This document shows positions 27,075-35,683 of a stretch of 35,683 bases of DNA, piece by piece. The DNA is from Methanobacteriota archaeon (GTDB taxonomy: Archaea; Thermoplasmatota; Poseidoniia; Poseidoniales; Thalassarchaeaceae): contig PSPW01000012.1 in assembly GCA_004195615.1 (NCBI GenBank), forward strand, positions 1 to 35,683. Reading direction: 5' to 3'. Below the pieces are notes generated by a model. The model had not been told where the DNA came from. It did no database searches and saw only the letters and a list, made by a program, of their open reading frames with translations. The position numbers and the translations under genes were made by a program. Numbering within the stretch: the stretch's first letter is position 1; every line of letters begins with the position of its first letter.

Positions 27075-30000
27075 ATGCTTCGATCGCGCGGTGCCTCAAA
27101 AATTGCAGAAGCCCTCTTCATGATTGTGCTAATGATTTCAACACCTGCATTGACTGTACAGACCGGAACGATATCCGGGGCACTTTCCGACGTAGACGAA
27201 CCGGTATACTTGACCGCTACCGGATCCAGCGCCGTCCCGGACTGTGATCTCGCTAACGTGACAATCACCGAAGTCTACTCCTACTCTTCTGATGAGTGGT
27301 TCGAGCTCTACAACGCCGGAAACCAGACTTGCGACCTTGGAGGGTGGCACATTAGGGACGGGGATACGTCCTCCGGCATGGTTATCGACAACGAGACCAA
27401 TATCTCCGCAGGCGATTTCATGGACTTTAGTAGCTCTGACGGGGACTTCTCCTTCGGCATTGAAGAGGACGATTCCATACTAATCTCGACAAGGAACGTC
27501 ACAACGGAGAACGCGACCACCATCACCACTCTGGACTACTATGGCAGAGACGGATCTCACTATTCGACGTCCCGTGACGGATCGTGGGAGCTGTGTGATG
27601 GAGAATGGGACTGGAATGAGCCCCAAGAGATGACGGCCGGTGAACCCAACATCTGTGCCGGTGACCCAATCGTCCTTTACGTTCAGGAAGATGACGGGTC
27701 GTGGACCCAGAACCCCGAGGTCATTCCCAACGGGAGCTCCAACTTGCTCTGGAACACGAGCAACCTAGAGATAGGGCAGTCCTACTACATGTACTACTCA
27801 TGGTCGACCCCCCTAGGGATCTCTTCGTCCCGGGCCCACTCTTTCACAGCAGATGGATCAGAAATCGAGTTCCAGATGCATTCAGATGAGTATTGGACAT
27901 GCGAAGTCAGTTTTTACTCCTACATCCGGAACGAGTCCTCAGGCGACATCATCGAGTACTACGACTGGGACCGGCAAGCAGATTGCACCATAGGGTACGG
28001 CCAGGGATACGACGGCAAGCAGGAATCGATCGAGCCCTTCAAGCTCTTCAAATCCTCGAGCATTCTCGTAGAAATCAAGGACGGCTTTGACTATGATGCG
28101 TATAACATGGGACTCAACAACATCCACATGTACAGGATCCCAGACCTAGTGTCCGATGTCACCTACGCCGTTGCAAGCAGAGTATACCTAGACGGGGTGC
28201 CCACAATGTTCGCTGTCGAGGAGTGCACCACCATCATCAGCGGCCACTGCGAGGTGAATATCCCGGTCTATCTCGAAAACCATGTCTGCGATGTCGACTT
28301 CTACTTCGATGTGTTCGTACTCTCACCGCACGGGTGGTTGAACATCGGCTCAGAGGTTATCGAAGCGATTGGCCATTGCAGCGGGGCGTCCGGAACGATG
28401 GACTCGGTGCTCAACCTGTATGGCAATGTGACCAATGCCGCGGGGGGGCAGTCATGGGTGGAGCTCGATGGGAGCTCTTGGGTAGGCAACGGGACAAATA
28501 GGATACAGAACTTCTACTGGGACATAGCCGACTCCGCTACGGACACAGAAGTGAGATTCTACACCTACTACGAAAACGAGAAGGTGATGGACGAGGACAA
28601 AATCTTCGACGGTCAGCACATCTACTGGAACGCAACCGTTTCCGATTTCGACTGCAGTCCCAACGTGTACGCTTACCTGTACATGATTATGCCTGACGGC
28701 GAGAACATCTACATCGATCACTGGTCGGGGACATTCGACACGGTCTGCGAGGACTGGGGGGACCTTAGCCTCCACGTTGACGACCTGACAAACGCCGACA
28801 ACGACCTCGTCGATGGGACCAACGACATGGTCTGGAACCTCTCTGATCTAGAGGTGGGTGAAGAGTACATGTTCGAGTGGTACACCCACAGGTCCAGCTC
28901 CTACACCGCGACTGATGAGGACACGATATACGGCGAGTTCTACGACTCGATCACCTTCACCCCCACTGTGGACTACACCCACCTGGAATGGGCCCTCGAG
29001 GCCCCCGGGGACTGGTGCGACGTGGACGTTTACGGGTACCTGTTCGCAGACGTAGATGATACGCAGGAGTGGTGGGACGCGGACGACGACACGAAGTGGA
29101 CCCAGGTCGCGCACAACACCTATGACATGGATCCCGTCTGCGATGGGTCGGACGTCGTACCATTTGATCCTGTTACACTGCAGTACAAGGAAGGATCAGA
29201 TTGGATTCCGGTCAACGACACAACAAACCTCTCAGTAGGCATGTATCAGATGAAATGGGTCGTAAGCGGCCTCAATGACAGCCAGGACTACGAGCTCAGA
29301 ACCAACTATGAGAAGCACCTAAACAGCAGTTGGCTTTACCAACGTCACTACTCAGACGGCAACTTTGGCTCAGTACTGGCTGCATCTGTAGTCGATGAGG
29401 TCAATGGGGATGGGAATGATTACGATGACTTCCATTCGGCATGTCCCACGATCCCCCATGACGGATTCGATACTGATGGCACGCCATATGGGGGAAGCGG
29501 AACAGGACTTACCCTAGATGTTACAGGATTCAACGGAGCAGCACTTTCTGTAACTATTGTAAACCCGGGAAGTGGATACGCCGTTGGGGATTATGTGATT
29601 CTAGATTGTGGAGGCAGCAATGCAGTGGTTTCCATAGATGAGGTGCTTCTCGGATTTGAGTCTGAGTGGACGCTGAGCATCTCGGAGTGGTCTTGCCACA
29701 TCGACTACGAGTACGATCTCTACCTCATCGGTGACAGGGGGTCCCTCCACCACCAGGACCACGAGATTGGCACCCCGGTCATCAACGGCCCATGCAACGA
29801 CCCGATTGATGTCGATGACGAAAACAAGCCTGAGTTTTCCTTGTCCGTGGTGTACTCCGACTACTCCGAGGATGACCTTGACGAGGTCGCCGCCCTCGAC
29901 GAGGGTATCAACATCATCAGATGGGAGATTGAGGACCCCATAGAGGGATACGAACACATGATCCACCTCTATGCGAACTACAACGGCAAGAGGCAAGAAG

Positions 30001-33000
30001 TCCACTTTGACAGCATCACGGGTGGTGCTAGTGACGAATCCGGCCTCTGGGAACTCACTCTGGAGGGTGATGTCTGTAACCTGTACGTCTACGGGGAATT
30101 ATATGTCAAGGAGTCGAACCACTGGCAACACGTCGAAAACCTCGGGGAAAACCTAGGATACAGTGGGAACCGGTCCGGCTGCGACTACTCTCCTACTTTC
30201 ACGGTATCCAAGGAGCTCTCTGACGGATCTTGGGACCAGAATCCAGAAGCCTTGGAATTCGGTGTGAACCAACTCAGATTTGATTTGAGCAACGTGGACC
30301 TTATGGACGACATGACTTACTACGTTAACGCGTATGTCCAGAGCGACGGAGGCTCCTCAGTGGGCTTCAGCACTTACTTCAATGTGGGAAACCCCTCAAA
30401 CCCTAGTTACTCATCGTACTCCGACTTCTTTGGCGAGGACATCTACCTTAACTTCACTGTGAACGATTGGACATGCACTGCATATGCTTACGGCAACGTC
30501 TACTACATCACTCCTAACGGGGGATGGCACAGCCTTGCCAATATGCAGTCGATTTACTTTGACACTCCTGCATGCGATTCAGCAGGCAACCTCTCCCTCT
30601 CGAAATACTCGTCGAGCCTGGGTTGGGACGACCTCGATGACGTCTGGGAAATAACCTCTGGAACAACGGATCTCTACTGGATCATGGACGATTTGGTCAT
30701 AGGGGAGTTGTATCAACTCTCCTTCTCTGTCTATTCGGACTCGGATCTTATCTACCAGAACGCCGGAGACGAATGGTTCGCGGATGCTAATAACAAATCC
30801 TGGTACTTCCCGATCACAATCGACGAGTCTGTTTGTAACCTGTACGGGCACGCATACCTGAGGTTATACGTTGACAACAGTTTCCAGGAAATCAGGAGGG
30901 TGAACATCAACACAGAAGAGCCATGCGTTCCATCCTTCGACATTCTCTTCGCGGACAACAGCGGCGCATCAGGGTGGTCCGACGCGATGTCCACAGCTCT
31001 ACCCGTGGGGGAAACGCAGATGCTGTTCGACATATCGGACTTTGGTCCCGGTGACTACGAGGTGGATTACTACTGGGGCTCCGAAAACGGTGGGAATGGT
31101 TGGTACAACGAAAATTCCTTCACAGTCAATGATACAAACGATGGCTTCTACTGGAACATCTCCCTCGATGAGGGAGACTGCTTCGCCTACGCCCACGTGA
31201 GAATCTACGAGATGATATTCGACGAAAGATACCAGGTGGCTTACTTCTCCAACATTAACCTAGTTGGGCCATGCTTACTGCCTGCCGTCCTGCTAACCGC
31301 TCAAAACAGCGGTGGACCGTACATAAGGGCAGGATCAGACACACTAGAGTTGGGAACTAACCACATGAGATGGGACCTCGATAACCTTCAGGTTGGTAGC
31401 GACTACGAAGTGGATTACTACTGGTACTCCACTACCCACGATATAGAATGGGCCACTCACGATTTCACCCATGATGGATCAGACATCGATTGGCTCCTGA
31501 ACACCACAGTTTGGGACTGTAGCGTATACGTGAGAGTCCACGTCTACGATAGCAACGGGGTCAGGTTCCACGAACGGGGCCAGTCATTCAACCCAGACGG
31601 ATGCACCGACGGCGGGGACGTCAGTCTGGAAGCAAACAGGACCTATGGATGGACCAACACAAACCAAAATCACAACGTAGACAATGGCTCGAACGAGCTT
31701 AGATGGGCCCTCTCCGACCTCGAGACCGACTTCAACTACACAATGGAGTGGTTGACCTACAGGAACGGAGACTTCACGCAGTATGACTCGTTCGAGTTCA
31801 CCGCAGACTCCTTGGAATCAAATCACGAGTTCACATTGGAAATAGAAGAGGCAATCACTTGTGAATTGAGCCTCCAGTATTACCTGAGCGTCGAAGTCGG
31901 TGGCAAAATTATTTCCGTGGAAAGCGGAAGCTTTTCCCTCAACCCATCATGCACTTTCCGGAAGGATTTCCTCGTCACCCCCATCCTTGTCCTAGACGAC
32001 AACGGTGTCGACTGGATAGAGACAGATTACATTGAGAACGGGAACCAGACCATCAGAATCGACCTATCCGGATTGGATGCCAACCAGAGTTACACCATGA
32101 ATGGGAATGTATGCACTACTACCGTTTGCGAGAGCTTCAATTGGGGTACTTTCTCACCAACGGATTGGTTGAATGCTTCCGAAGAAGATCACAAAGACTT
32201 CGACATCATCGTGGACGAGTGGTCATGTGAGGTTTCGGTCTACATCCACATGCACATGATTACCCTCAACGGGTCCAACAATCGTCACATTTTGGGGGAC
32301 TATACCTACCTCAGCTCTCCCTGCTTCAATCCAGGTGACGTCGAGCTAGAGATCGATGGCGACGAGGTCGGATACAGTATGGGCCTCGAGAACGGCACCA
32401 ACGACATGTCGTGGAACCTGACCGATCTCGCGGCAAACCAGACTTACACCTTCGACTGGAGGGTCCGCTTCAACGGCGACTACGTCATGTACGATTCCGA
32501 GACATGGTTCTCAGGATCTGACCTGACTACCCAGCTCAATTGGATGCTGGACTTCAATAGCACCTTCATTTGCAACGCCCAGATCTACTGGCGGACCTTC
32601 CTCGACTCCTCCAATTCGAGCACCCATAACTGGATTGAGATGGATAGCGGTGATTTCTACGAGAGCTTCCCCTGCGACGAGTACGTCTACCCCGATGATC
32701 ACTACGTCAACGTCTACGGACTGGTCAACGGTACATGGGAGCAAGAGCCCGGCTACTTGCCCACTGGCGACAACGACCTCGAGCTCAGGTTCGAGAACCT
32801 GACAGTAGGGGCCGACTACAGGATCTACTTCTACCATTCCGGGTCCGGTTTTGACTCGTACTCAGAGTACACGTACTTTACTTACGAGGGGGCCCCCTTG
32901 GAGATGCCCCTCCCCATCGCCCCATGGGCATGCGACATATCCTACAGTTGGGATATCTACCTGAATGACTTCAGGTACCCCGACAGCTACAACAGCTGGC

Positions 33001-35683
33001 ACCTCGGGTCCGATAGCGGATCCCTCGACGGCCCGTGTGAGAGCGTCAGCTACGACAACTCCCAGGAACCCGGATTCAACGCATCTTACGACGAGGACAG
33101 CGAGTTCGTAGCAGGAACCAACAGCATCACACTGGTGGCCTCGAACCTCCAGCTAGACTTCCCGTACTACATGGAGTCCAAGGTTTACTTCGATGGCTAC
33201 CTCAACGTCCTAGAGTACTCCACCTGGTTCGGGGTCAACGAGACCGACGAGACCCTCTCGTTCGACCTCGAGATCCCTGGGCACGTCTGCGACGTGAATG
33301 TGTACTCGAGAATGTACGTGAGGACCTCCAGCGGCAATACACAGATCGCAAGCAACGACACCTACGACATGGATGGGCCTTGCGACGACACCGACGGCGA
33401 TTCTAAGCGGGCATTTCCGCTCTACGCGCAGATCGACGGGTCTTGGACACTAGTCGACGACGACACCCTGATCGAGCCAGGCGAGACCCAGATGTACTGG
33501 AACCTGAGCTCGCTGGAGGACGACGAACGGGTATACTTCTACTTCAACGCACCAAGCTGGAGTTGGGGCGACTACGTGACGGCCGACGATGGCCTGATTG
33601 AGTGGACCCTGTCCCTTAGCGAGTTCGAGTGCAACCCTAGCATCTACAGCTACATCAATCTCTGGAGCCCGTGGACCGGGTCTCATAGCACCGGGGGCAC
33701 CCACACCTACCCCGCCACCGAGTGCATCGATGGGGGCAACATAACCCTCGAGGTTGTGGACGATGGCGGCGCAGCCATCGAGACATATCAATCCGGACAA
33801 GGAGGGGAATACCACCTGCTGCCGGGCACTACTCACTTCTCGTGGTCCTTGGATGGACTCGTCGACGGCTACCAGTACGAGCTCTACTGGTACCAGGACG
33901 GGAGCGACGGGAATCAACCTCACTTCGAGTACTTCACCGCAGACAACTCTGAATCGGCCTTCTTCTTCTTCGACCTGACGATCGACGAGTACGAGTGCAA
34001 TGTCTACTACTACGCCTACCTGAGGCCGATGTCGGAAGTCACCGGCAGCTACGAGCAGGTGGAGAGCTTCAGCTTCCACCCCGAGGAGCCATGCTACCCG
34101 CCGTTCGACGTGCTGGCCACCGACGCTTCGGGCGACTTCACGGTCGACGCCCTACACCCAGACTTCGCCTTGGCACCCGGCGAGAACCACCTGTTTTTCG
34201 ACTTCAGCAACCTGGACAACGGGTCCGAGTACAGGCTGGAGTGGTACTACGAGGATAGTGAAGGCTGGTTCGGCTGGTTCTACGATGGCGTCCCCGATGG
34301 CATCCAACTCAACATGACAATGGACTTCTGGGACTGCGATGCCTACTTCTACACGCAACTGTACAACATGAGCGAAGTCGACTCAGCAGGTAACGGAGAC
34401 TACATGGAAGGCAGGACCAGGTACCTGCAGGGACCATGCCTCGATCCGCTGGCCCTGCAAGTTAACGGCACCGAGAGCGACCAACACGGCATGCAACTGG
34501 ATTTGGGCGACAACGACATGACCTGGGCGTTCGACCACCTGACGACGGGAGTCGACTACCGCTTGCAGTGGTACTGGAGCAACGAGTCCAGCTGGAACGG
34601 TTGGTTCTACGACTACTTCACCTACAACGGCTCGAACGACCTGGACTGGAACCTCCACGTCAGCACCTTCGACTGCAACCCCTACGCGTACGCGAGCATC
34701 TACTACGACGACAACGGGACCTCGGTCGGTGACAACCAGTACTGGTACTTCCACGTGCCCGACTGCTCCGATCCATGGATGGAGATCATCGACTCCGAAG
34801 GAGACGAGGTGGACAGCGACGACATCGAGATAGATGACGAAATAGACCTCGTCTGGGTCATTCACGACCTGCCGGACTTAGGATACGAGTACACGCTCGA
34901 CATGAGGTTCTGGGAGAACGGGAACCTAGTCGACTATCGCTACGAGAGCTTCAACTTCTCCAGCGCCGACACGGAAGGAGACGTGCATATCGATCTCTGG
35001 TCGGGTATGGCGGACAACGACGTATGCGAACTCAGGATCGAGTCGACCCTCTACGTGCTCTCGGACGAGTCCTCCAACGACTGGAACAGCATCGAGGGAT
35101 ACAGCCGATACTTCTACCCCGACTGCGAGCCCCTGCCAGGCGAAGAGGACAACTTCGCCACTGGCGACGGGAACTACGTCAATTTCTACGGCCCTGACGC
35201 GGATGGCAACCTAGTGGAGCTGGACGATGACCCAGCGATGTCCAGCTACATCATGCCCGCGGGAGAGAACACCATCGAGATACAATTCGAGAACCTCACG
35301 GTCGGAGCGGACTACAGGCTGTACCTGTACCACTCAGGAACCGGATTCCCCGACGAGTCCAACTACCACTACTTCACTTACGACGGCAGTGGCTCGATGG
35401 ACTGGGACGTACTGGTCGCCCCATGGGCATGCGACGTCTACTTCAGCTGGAACATGTACCTGTACGACTTCAGGTACCCGGACAGTGGACACATCAGCTG
35501 GCACCTACGCTCCGACAGCACCAACTCAAACGGTCCCTGCGAGAGCGTAAGCTACGACAGCAGCCAGGAGACCGACTTCAACCTCTCGTACGACGAGAAC
35601 ACCCAGTTCGACACCGGCAACAACACGGTGACGATCTCCGCGGTCGACCTACAGGACATGTTCCCGTACGCAGCCGAGCTGGA
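27075..35683 (+). CDS. Giant secreted repeat protein, LTD plus at least 21 Cys-paired units (3' partial)
   Basis: One frame is open from ATG 27075 (the TGA just before it is at 27069) to the window end: 2869 complete codons with no stop. Residues 1 to about 30 are a signal peptide (MLRSRGASKIAEALFMIVLM). Residues about 57-194 resemble a lamin-tail domain (TITEVYSYSSDEWFELYNAG, GGWHIRDG). From about residue 196, units of about 125 residues repeat. Each has a G-x-N-x-M-x-W-x-L-S-x-L-x-x-G-x-x-Y block, an aromatic WYW-type strand, a W-x-C-x-V-x-Y-type cysteine and a second cysteine near P-C about 35-45 residues later. I count 21 units, with first cysteines from codon 27900 to codon 35430. N-x-S/T sequons are frequent. 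It is probably a glycosylated, disulfide-bonded surface fibre or adhesin. Anchor and total length lie outside the window. Confidence 0.88.
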   Translation, partial: MLRSRGASKIAEALFMIVLMISTPALTVQTGTISGALSDVDEPVYLTATGSSAVPDCDLANVTITEVYSYSSDEWFELYNAGNQTCDLGGWHIRDGDTSSGMVIDNETNISAGDFMDFSSSDGDFSFGIEEDDSILISTRNVTTENATTITTLDYYGRDGSHYSTSRDGSWELCDGEWDWNEPQEMTAGEPNICAGDPIVLYVQEDDGSWTQNPEVIPNGSSNLLWNTSNLEIGQSYYMYYSWSTPLGISSSRAHSFTADGSEIEFQMHSDEYWTCEVSFYSYIRNESSGDIIEYYDWDRQADCTIGYGQGYDGKQESIEPFKLFKSSSILVEIKDGFDYDAYNMGLNNIHMYRIPDLVSDVTYAVASRVYLDGVPTMFAVEECTTIISGHCEVNIPVYLENHVCDVDFYFDVFVLSPHGWLNIGSEVIEAIGHCSGASGTMDSVLNLYGNVTNAAGGQSWVELDGSSWVGNGTNRIQNFYWDIADSATDTEVRFYTYYENEKVMDEDKIFDGQHIYWNATVSDFDCSPNVYAYLYMIMPDGENIYIDHWSGTFDTVCEDWGDLSLHVDDLTNADNDLVDGTNDMVWNLSDLEVGEEYMFEWYTHRSSSYTATDEDTIYGEFYDSITFTPTVDYTHLEWALEAPGDWCDVDVYGYLFADVDDTQEWWDADDDTKWTQVAHNTYDMDPVCDGSDVVPFDPVTLQYKEGSDWIPVNDTTNLSVGMYQMKWVVSGLNDSQDYELRTNYEKHLNSSWLYQRHYSDGNFGSVLAASVVDEVNGDGNDYDDFHSACPTIPHDGFDTDGTPYGGSGTGLTLDVTGFNGAALSVTIVNPGSGYAVGDYVILDCGGSNAVVSIDEVLLGFESEWTLSISEWSCHIDYEYDLYLIGDRGSLHHQDHEIGTPVINGPCNDPIDVDDENKPEFSLSVVYSDYSEDDLDEVAALDEGINIIRWEIEDPIEGYEHMIHLYANYNGKRQEVHFDSITGGASDESGLWELTLEGDVCNLYVYGELYVKESNHWQHVENLGENLGYSGNRSGCDYSPTFTVSKELSDGSWDQNPEALEFGVNQLRFDLSNVDLMDDMTYYVNAYVQSDGGSSVGFSTYFNVGNPSNPSYSSYSDFFGEDIYLNFTVNDWTCTAYAYGNVYYITPNGGWHSLANMQSIYFDTPACDSAGNLSLSKYSSSLGWDDLDDVWEITSGTTDLYWIMDDLVIGELYQLSFSVYSDSDLIYQNAGDEWFADANNKSWYFPITIDESVCNLYGHAYLRLYVDNSFQEIRRVNINTEEPCVPSFDILFADNSGASGWSDAMSTALPVGETQMLFDISDFGPGDYEVDYYWGSENGGNGWYNENSFTVNDTNDGFYWNISLDEGDCFAYAHVRIYEMIFDERYQVAYFSNINLVGPCLLPAVLLTAQNSGGPYIRAGSDTLELGTNHMRWDLDNLQVGSDYEVDYYWYSTTHDIEWATHDFTHDGSDIDWLLNTTVWDCSVYVRVHVYDSNGVRFHERGQSFNPDGCTDGGDVSLEANRTYGWTNTNQNHNVDNGSNELRWALSDLETDFNYTMEWLTYRNGDFTQYDSFEFTADSLESNHEFTLEIEEAITCELSLQYYLSVEVGGKIISVESGSFSLNPSCTFRKDFLVTPILVLDDNGVDWIETDYIENGNQTIRIDLSGLDANQSYTMNGNVCTTTVCESFNWGTFSPTDWLNASEEDHKDFDIIVDEWSCEVSVYIHMHMITLNGSNNRHILGDYTYLSSPCFNPGDVELEIDGDEVGYSMGLENGTNDMSWNLTDLAANQTYTFDWRVRFNGDYVMYDSETWFSGSDLTTQLNWMLDFNSTFICNAQIYWRTFLDSSNSSTHNWIEMDSGDFYESFPCDEYVYPDDHYVNVYGLVNGTWEQEPGYLPTGDNDLELRFENLTVGADYRIYFYHSGSGFDSYSEYTYFTYEGAPLEMPLPIAPWACDISYSWDIYLNDFRYPDSYNSWHLGSDSGSLDGPCESVSYDNSQEPGFNASYDEDSEFVAGTNSITLVASNLQLDFPYYMESKVYFDGYLNVLEYSTWFGVNETDETLSFDLEIPGHVCDVNVYSRMYVRTSSGNTQIASNDTYDMDGPCDDTDGDSKRAFPLYAQIDGSWTLVDDDTLIEPGETQMYWNLSSLEDDERVYFYFNAPSWSWGDYVTADDGLIEWTLSLSEFECNPSIYSYINLWSPWTGSHSTGGTHTYPATECIDGGNITLEVVDDGGAAIETYQSGQGGEYHLLPGTTHFSWSLDGLVDGYQYELYWYQDGSDGNQPHFEYFTADNSESAFFFFDLTIDEYECNVYYYAYLRPMSEVTGSYEQVESFSFHPEEPCYPPFDVLATDASGDFTVDALHPDFALAPGENHLFFDFSNLDNGSEYRLEWYYEDSEGWFGWFYDGVPDGIQLNMTMDFWDCDAYFYTQLYNMSEVDSAGNGDYMEGRTRYLQGPCLDPLALQVNGTESDQHGMQLDLGDNDMTWAFDHLTTGVDYRLQWYWSNESSWNGWFYDYFTYNGSNDLDWNLHVSTFDCNPYAYASIYYDDNGTSVGDNQYWYFHVPDCSDPWMEIIDSEGDEVDSDDIEIDDEIDLVWVIHDLPDLGYEYTLDMRFWENGNLVDYRYESFNFSSADTEGDVHIDLWSGMADNDVCELRIESTLYVLSDESSNDWNSIEGYSRYFYPDCEPLPGEEDNFATGDGNYVNFYGPDADGNLVELDDDPAMSSYIMPAGENTIEIQFENLTVGADYRLYLYHSGTGFPDESNYHYFTYDGSGSMDWDVLVAPWACDVYFSWNMYLYDFRYPDSGHISWHLRSDSTNSNGPCESVSYDSSQETDFNLSYDENTQFDTGNNTVTISAVDLQDMFPYAAEL
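27243..27656 (+). other. Lamin-tail-like domain of the giant protein
   Basis: This encodes residues about 57-194. Features are an ITEVY strand, EWFELYNAG (the LTD signature of an Ile-x-Glu-Val start with E-W-F/V-E-L-Y-N), then CDLGGWHIRDG and SFGIEEDDSILIS. Four cysteines suggest extracellular disulfides. LTDs in prokaryotes are extracellular beta-sandwiches that often tether or bind. Confidence 0.7.
29385..29640 (+). other. Inserted GSGYxVGD-type segment in unit 5 of the giant protein
   Basis: Between the aromatic block and the first cysteine of unit 5, the repeat pattern breaks for about 85 residues. This stretch has an acidic Gly/Asn/Asp part (DEVNGDGNDYDDFHSAC), then GGSGTGLTLDVTGFNG and NPGSGYAVGDYVILDCGG. 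It also uses more A/T-ending codons (GAT, AAT, GGA) than the units around it. This looks like an inserted small beta domain. Confidence 0.6.
32700..33180 (+). repeat. Duplicated unit block, copy A
   Basis: This covers units 13/14 to 15 of the giant protein. It shares with copy B the strings FENLTVGADYR, APWACD, DFRYPDS, SWHL and GPCESVSYD in the same order and spacing, about 2.5 kb apart. The match is far closer than between other units and suggests a later duplication or gene conversion. Confidence 0.65.
35170..35683 (+). repeat. Duplicated unit block, copy B
   Basis: This is the second copy of the unit block (units 20/21 into 22), lying 2.47-2.50 kb to the right of copy A and cut by the window end. 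Synonymous third-position differences are common, so the duplication is not brand-new. Confidence 0.65.

Follow-up and report, generated by a model that had tools for sequence, protein, structure and literature searches.

Giant Ig-repeat surface adhesins are already known as a kind. The adhesin of Mobiluncus mulieris comprises 51 Ig-like domains in 7651 residues (PMC10619420) and, like the proteins with ester-bond repeats (CPE0147 and those of Gemella and Suipraoptans), forms a very long surface-exposed Ig-like chain in which each domain carries covalent intra-domain cross-links, mainly ester or isopeptide bonds. A thrombospondin-3 (TSP3) stem beside a C-terminal sorting tail, here MYXO-CTERM, characterizes the MtsC-type cell-cohesion proteins of myxobacteria (NF047638), and tandem β-sandwiches make up FN3 and macroglobulin (MG) arrays. 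Among planktonic archaea of the surface ocean, Marine Group II (Ca. Poseidoniales) is the most abundant group, and it lacks cultured members. How it attaches to particles has been inferred solely from genes for the archaellum, thrombospondin, and flotillin (Rinke et al., PMC6461757).

The window analyzed here, a stretch of 35,683 nucleotides that constitutes the entire contig C48 of genome G000, ends in a gene that resembles each of these systems in part. Its product is probably a giant membrane-anchored, glycosylated cell-surface stalk of Marine Group II, most likely an adhesin; the stalk anatomy is well supported, and we infer an adhesive role. It shares the very long Ig-like chain of the Mobiluncus and ester-bond adhesins, with a cysteine pair as the putative counterpart of their ester and isopeptide bonds, and differs from them in its archaeal host, its stem of calcium repeats, and its archaeosortase-type tail. 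Among solved structures the ester-bond repeats come closest to its unit in fold, yet the identity is 9–17% and the TM score about 0.5. As in MtsC, a TSP3 stem stands beside a C-terminal sorting tail, but the tail is PGF-type and only the TSP3 stretch matches NF047638 (51 bits against a cut-off of 350 for the stem of the ortholog P0002), with no Ig-like array matched. Unlike FN3 and MG arrays, the archaeal unit has an invariant C-terminal cysteine pair and no whole-domain significant sequence match. The stem could be among the thrombospondin genes counted in the same order by Rinke et al. and read there as adhesion functions; the thrombospondin portion of that account is without the Ig-like unit, the lamin-tail domain, the size, or the anchor (PMC6461757). 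What appears to be new is the sequence family of the unit and the combination of a lamin-tail domain, a putatively disulfide-paired Ig array, a calcium-repeat stem, and an archaeosortase-type tail; a search of the open literature, which covers few subscription journals and preprints, found neither described. Attachment in Marine Group II may now be tied to one specific surface protein of very large size, whose architecture can be tested.

The giant frame and its repeat units

The giant open reading frame (27075..35681; all window features lie on the + strand) runs stop-free for 2869 codons to the contig edge, where it is cut off without its 3′ end. The preliminary description had proposed a single frame of at least 2869 codons with a signal peptide, a lamin-tail-like domain, and at least 21 diverged units sharing a conserved cysteine pair, and all of these elements hold. 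The start, MLRSRGASKIAEALFMIVLMISTPALT, resembles a signal peptide as judged from its sequence (27075..27155; a basic start, then ALFMIVLMISTPALT), and the same pattern is found in the orthologs L023, L024, and L075. The lamin tail domain PF00932 (27252..27503, residues 60–143) scores 38.1 bits against a Pfam gathering cut-off of 34.3, and 39.6 bits in P0002, the protein of L023. The encoded protein contains 11.1% D, 7.5% Y, 3.3% W, and 0.8% K, with 515 D+E against 81 K+R and a computed pI of 4.05.

The end of the frame aligns to residue 3003 of the 4705-residue P0002, which puts the missing part at about 1700 residues, provided that the remainder is conserved; by this alignment the window frame is the first ~60% of a giant protein. 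A search of the other G000 contigs for the missing 3′ end or a second gene copy returned only calcium-repeat cross-hits to other proteins, and the stem and anchor are absent from the window and from the rest of the assembly (contigs searched). None of five upstream window genes recurs beside orthologs in the available flanks compared, and hence there is no operon argument.

Twenty-one complete Ig-like two-cysteine units, recognized by the unit profile and by their predicted fold, occupy residues 195–2822 (27657..35540), each with an i-E ≤ 5e-20. The start of a 22nd (35541..35681) is indicated by a weak profile fragment at residues 2833–2866 and by the alignment to L023 up to residue 3003. Because the profile contains the very units it scores, a leave-one-out control was run in which each held-out unit was compared with up to 500 shuffles with the cysteines kept fixed. 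All 21 beat every scored shuffle; the weakest, unit 2, reaches 17.1 bits against a shuffle maximum of 12.2, and the remainder score 31.8–79.2 bits. Across 85 units from several species, both cysteines are invariant, the glycine of the G-x-N block is 91% conserved, and the tyrosine following the L-x-x-G block is 86% conserved. An additional pair of cysteines is present in units 2 and 12. The 125-residue period first proposed is right as to repetition and too rigid as to length: full units mostly span 109–138 residues, and unit 5 reaches 218 owing to an insert of ~95 residues.

Sequence family and predicted fold of the unit

The unit has no significant match in Pfam, NCBIfam, PHROGs, or PDB sequences. 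Nothing in Pfam matches the unit region of the full window protein or P0002, and when the 85 units were searched against Pfam one by one, the best shared match was GBS104-like_Ig (4 members, E 0.072), with no family above noise. FN3 strands occur among the weak profile matches (best E 0.008 over 24 positions, titin), none with whole-domain significance, and a viral fold search returned generic sandwiches only. The preliminary description recognized no named family in the unit and had set a profile match to a known Ig/FN3-like family as the observation that would overturn this; none of the 85 units gave one above noise. Its reading stands for the sequence family and not for the fold, which in the predicted model is of a known kind.

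Unit 19 (34440..34766), modeled by AlphaFold2 with 85 aligned units, is predicted to consist of eight strands and no helix (mean pLDDT 93.6, pTM 0.85). The model has the two-sheet arrangement and a strand number within the 7–9 of Ig/FN3-like β-sandwiches, and Foldseek relates it to Ig-like folds with a probability of 1.00, TM scores of 0.47–0.60, and about 10% identity. Among solved structures, the model lies closest to ester-bond adhesin repeats, RhoGDI, a porphyran CBM, and macroglobulin-like domains, the best PDB neighbors including adhesin repeat domains from Gemella, Suipraoptans, and C. perfringens. With an Ig/FN3-like fold predicted, the novelty rests in the sequence family and the architecture. 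Three consecutive units are modeled as three tandem sandwiches (pLDDT 83.2, pTM 0.54) with unreliable relative orientation, and their nearest folds are tandem MG and FN3 arrays; at a pTM of only 0.54, any rod-like geometry is tentative. In unit 19, Cys79 immediately precedes strand 82–89 and Cys109 immediately follows strand 100–105, the two strands being neighbors in one hairpin. These positions on either side of the F–G hairpin fit a putative intra-unit disulfide.

Full-length architecture and surface machinery

In the complete ortholog P0002, a signal peptide and the lamin-tail domain precede some 30 units; these are followed by a sub-threshold LDL-receptor-A-like cysteine stretch, then by DxDGDG repeats that begin near residue 4300, and lastly by the C-terminal tail LPGFSAVAGLASMLGAAVLIAGRRKD. 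L075, also complete at 3382 residues, has the same domain order. Like that of P0002, the independent C-termini of L025, L030, L032, L075, L076, L078, and L080 all combine DxDGDG repeats with PGF[STG]...GRRK or SRRK. The number of units varies from about 30 in L023 and L024 to about 20 in L075 and at most 10 in L076 and L077; in these two shorter relatives the units directly follow the N-terminus, and the lamin-tail domain therefore looks optional. The calcium-repeat stem is evident by its DxDGDG-type pattern, with PF02412 (TSP_3) scoring 20.1 and 21.8 bits over 2–4 stretches, below the gathering cut-off of 25. Likewise, TIGR04126 (PGF-CTERM) reaches 9.6 bits on the P0002 tail against a cut-off of 24.5, and the tail is thus PGF-CTERM-type by its LPGF-hydrophobic-RRK pattern, conserved in orthologs, and not a member of that family. 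The anchor had been placed beyond the window, as the stem and tail of the relatives bear out; for the window protein itself, both would be as in these relatives, at about 40–60% identity.

The enzymes for such a protein are encoded in the same genome. An archaeosortase A (TIGR04125; G000:C19:41458-42297) scores 83 bits against a cut-off of 75, and an STT3 oligosaccharyltransferase scores 51 bits against 24.5; the latter further has a sub-threshold match to the "archaeosortase A system-associated" STT3 model. The window protein has 54 sequons against 28.5 ± 4.7 in shuffled sequences, about twice the expectation, with no enrichment of the reversed motif (28), and P0002 has 93 against 48.9 expected. 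This agrees with the earlier remark on sequons and is consistent with N-glycosylation.

Two other secreted calcium-repeat proteins of G000 end in similar tails. Secreted proteins with a like calcium-repeat stem are found at L089:2108-4303 and L091:3827-7216 (G000:C14 and G000:C15); of the two, the one on C14 resembles a secreted hydrolase and the one on C15 also ends in an LPGF-type tail. These archaea hence seem to use stem plus tail as a general module for surface display. The STT3/AglB-type oligosaccharyltransferase of G000 lies within a 3305-codon frame, far above the usual size (L090:1804-11721, G000:C43), with a very long extracellular-looking extension that includes a carboxypeptidase-regulatory-like domain and a DxDGDG stretch.

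Distribution, evolution, and possible function

Matches to the window protein occur in 16 of 98 genomes of the genus, family, and order (its own included), the strong ones mostly within the genus. Three same-genus genomes are identical, at the loci compared, to public records named "Marine group II euryarchaeote REDSEA-S30_B12", "Euryarchaeota archaeon UBA36", and "Euryarchaeota archaeon SP3092", in keeping with the archaeal origin first assigned and with a place in Marine Group II. The unit profile matches 71 of 293 genomes of the order, with repeated strong matches concentrated in the genus of the window and in genus g6 of the same family; most other matching genomes have one match each, mostly weak, and a phylum-scale search returned only weak, partial matches outside the order. 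On this sample, the family is thus essentially confined to Poseidoniales. In most assemblies that contain the gene, it is truncated at a contig end (L025–L030, L032–L035, L039, L040, L078–L080, and the window), and it has probably been missed or reported as fragments; with the unit in neither Pfam nor NCBIfam, the protein may have been overlooked. Its N-terminus is also present, at 47% identity, on L067 (NZKZ01000050.1) of the public MAG "Acidiferrobacter sp. isolate IN47", a contig that is probably contaminating or misnamed.

Most window units pair one-to-one with L023 units at about 40–60% identity, compared with about 27% between units of one protein. The divergence of the units thus predates the species split, with no later homogenization. 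L023 units nine apart share 41–78% identity over a mid-protein stretch, as at no other offset, which points to duplication of a block of about nine units. Accordingly, window unit 14 (32676..33038) is a paralog of unit 21 (35127..35540), which lies in the second block shortly before the assembly stops; the two share 84% DNA identity over 70 nt. Two L023 units are absent between window units 20 and 21, which may reflect a deletion or an assembly collapse.

In the proposed mechanism, the signal peptide would direct export of the giant protein, whose chain would fold into about 28–30 Ig/FN3-like β-sandwiches, each closed by one disulfide from the start of strand F to the end of strand G and many bearing N-glycans. 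The C-terminus, as in orthologs, would provide a thrombospondin-3-like calcium-binding stem and a PGF-CTERM-type tail that archaeosortase A would cleave off, putting a membrane lipid in its place. The chain would then extend off the cell with the lamin-tail domain and variable units far from the membrane, where they could contact particles, polymers, or other cells for adhesion or capture. Thrombospondin-linked adhesion has been inferred for Poseidoniales (PMC6461757).

The preliminary description had left a fiber, an adhesin, and a sheath side by side; a stalk-type adhesin is the reading favored here. A structural envelope protein, that is, a sheath or S-layer-like coat subunit and not a ligand-binding stalk, is unlikely. 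The protein is secreted, very acidic, sequon-rich, and furnished with an archaeosortase-type tail, its giant multi-domain size could span a coat, and archaeosortase substrates elsewhere include the S-layer glycoproteins of Haloferax. However, a unit number that varies among orthologs and paralogs is awkward for a fixed lattice, the units of orthologs are only about 40–60% identical, and detection is patchy, with no match in the same-genus genomes G003, G014, and G021 (53–79% complete). A somewhat less doubtful alternative, though still a minority reading, is that the protein serves extracellular digestion as a scaffold or capture arm, with units that bind carbohydrate or protein and hold polymers near secreted hydrolases. 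The 12 best structural neighbors of the unit include the porphyran-binding CBM (8wae), an apparent secreted hydrolase occurs among the other G000 proteins with similar calcium-repeat and/or PGF-like tails, and the preservation of unit identities between species could reflect distinct ligands; against this, the complete homolog P0002 has no Pfam catalytic domain, and no CBM family matches the unit sequence above noise.

An assembly or open-frame artefact is a highly improbable source of the long frame. The contig does break within the gene, and the two missing units could be a collapsed repeat, but stop-free frames of 4705, 4455, and 3755 codons in three independent assemblies, together with the 3382-codon relative and the unit-by-unit orthology to L023, lead us to reject an artefact for the whole gene. 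A further and tentative possibility is that the protein is an extended arm, lengthened by the nine-unit duplication, on which some 30 units of this Poseidoniales-specific Ig-like family, each keeping its identity since before the species split, offer many distinct binding sites, with the arm setting which particles or cells get attached.

The insert of unit 5 (29370..29654) is a ~95-residue GxGYxxGD-type module in the D–E loop. Among the genomes compared it is found in G000 alone, the orthologs L023, L024, L027, L029, and L079 being without it. A similar module (35–47% identity) occurs in an archaellum-cluster protein of four same-genus genomes (L031:2298-2510, L036:3182-3319, L037:2871-2990, and L038:3070-3210), which adjoins a flagellin-domain protein and an apparent FlaI-like ATPase. 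The module also has weak PHROG matches to phage tail and virion proteins and may be a mobile surface-exposed domain.
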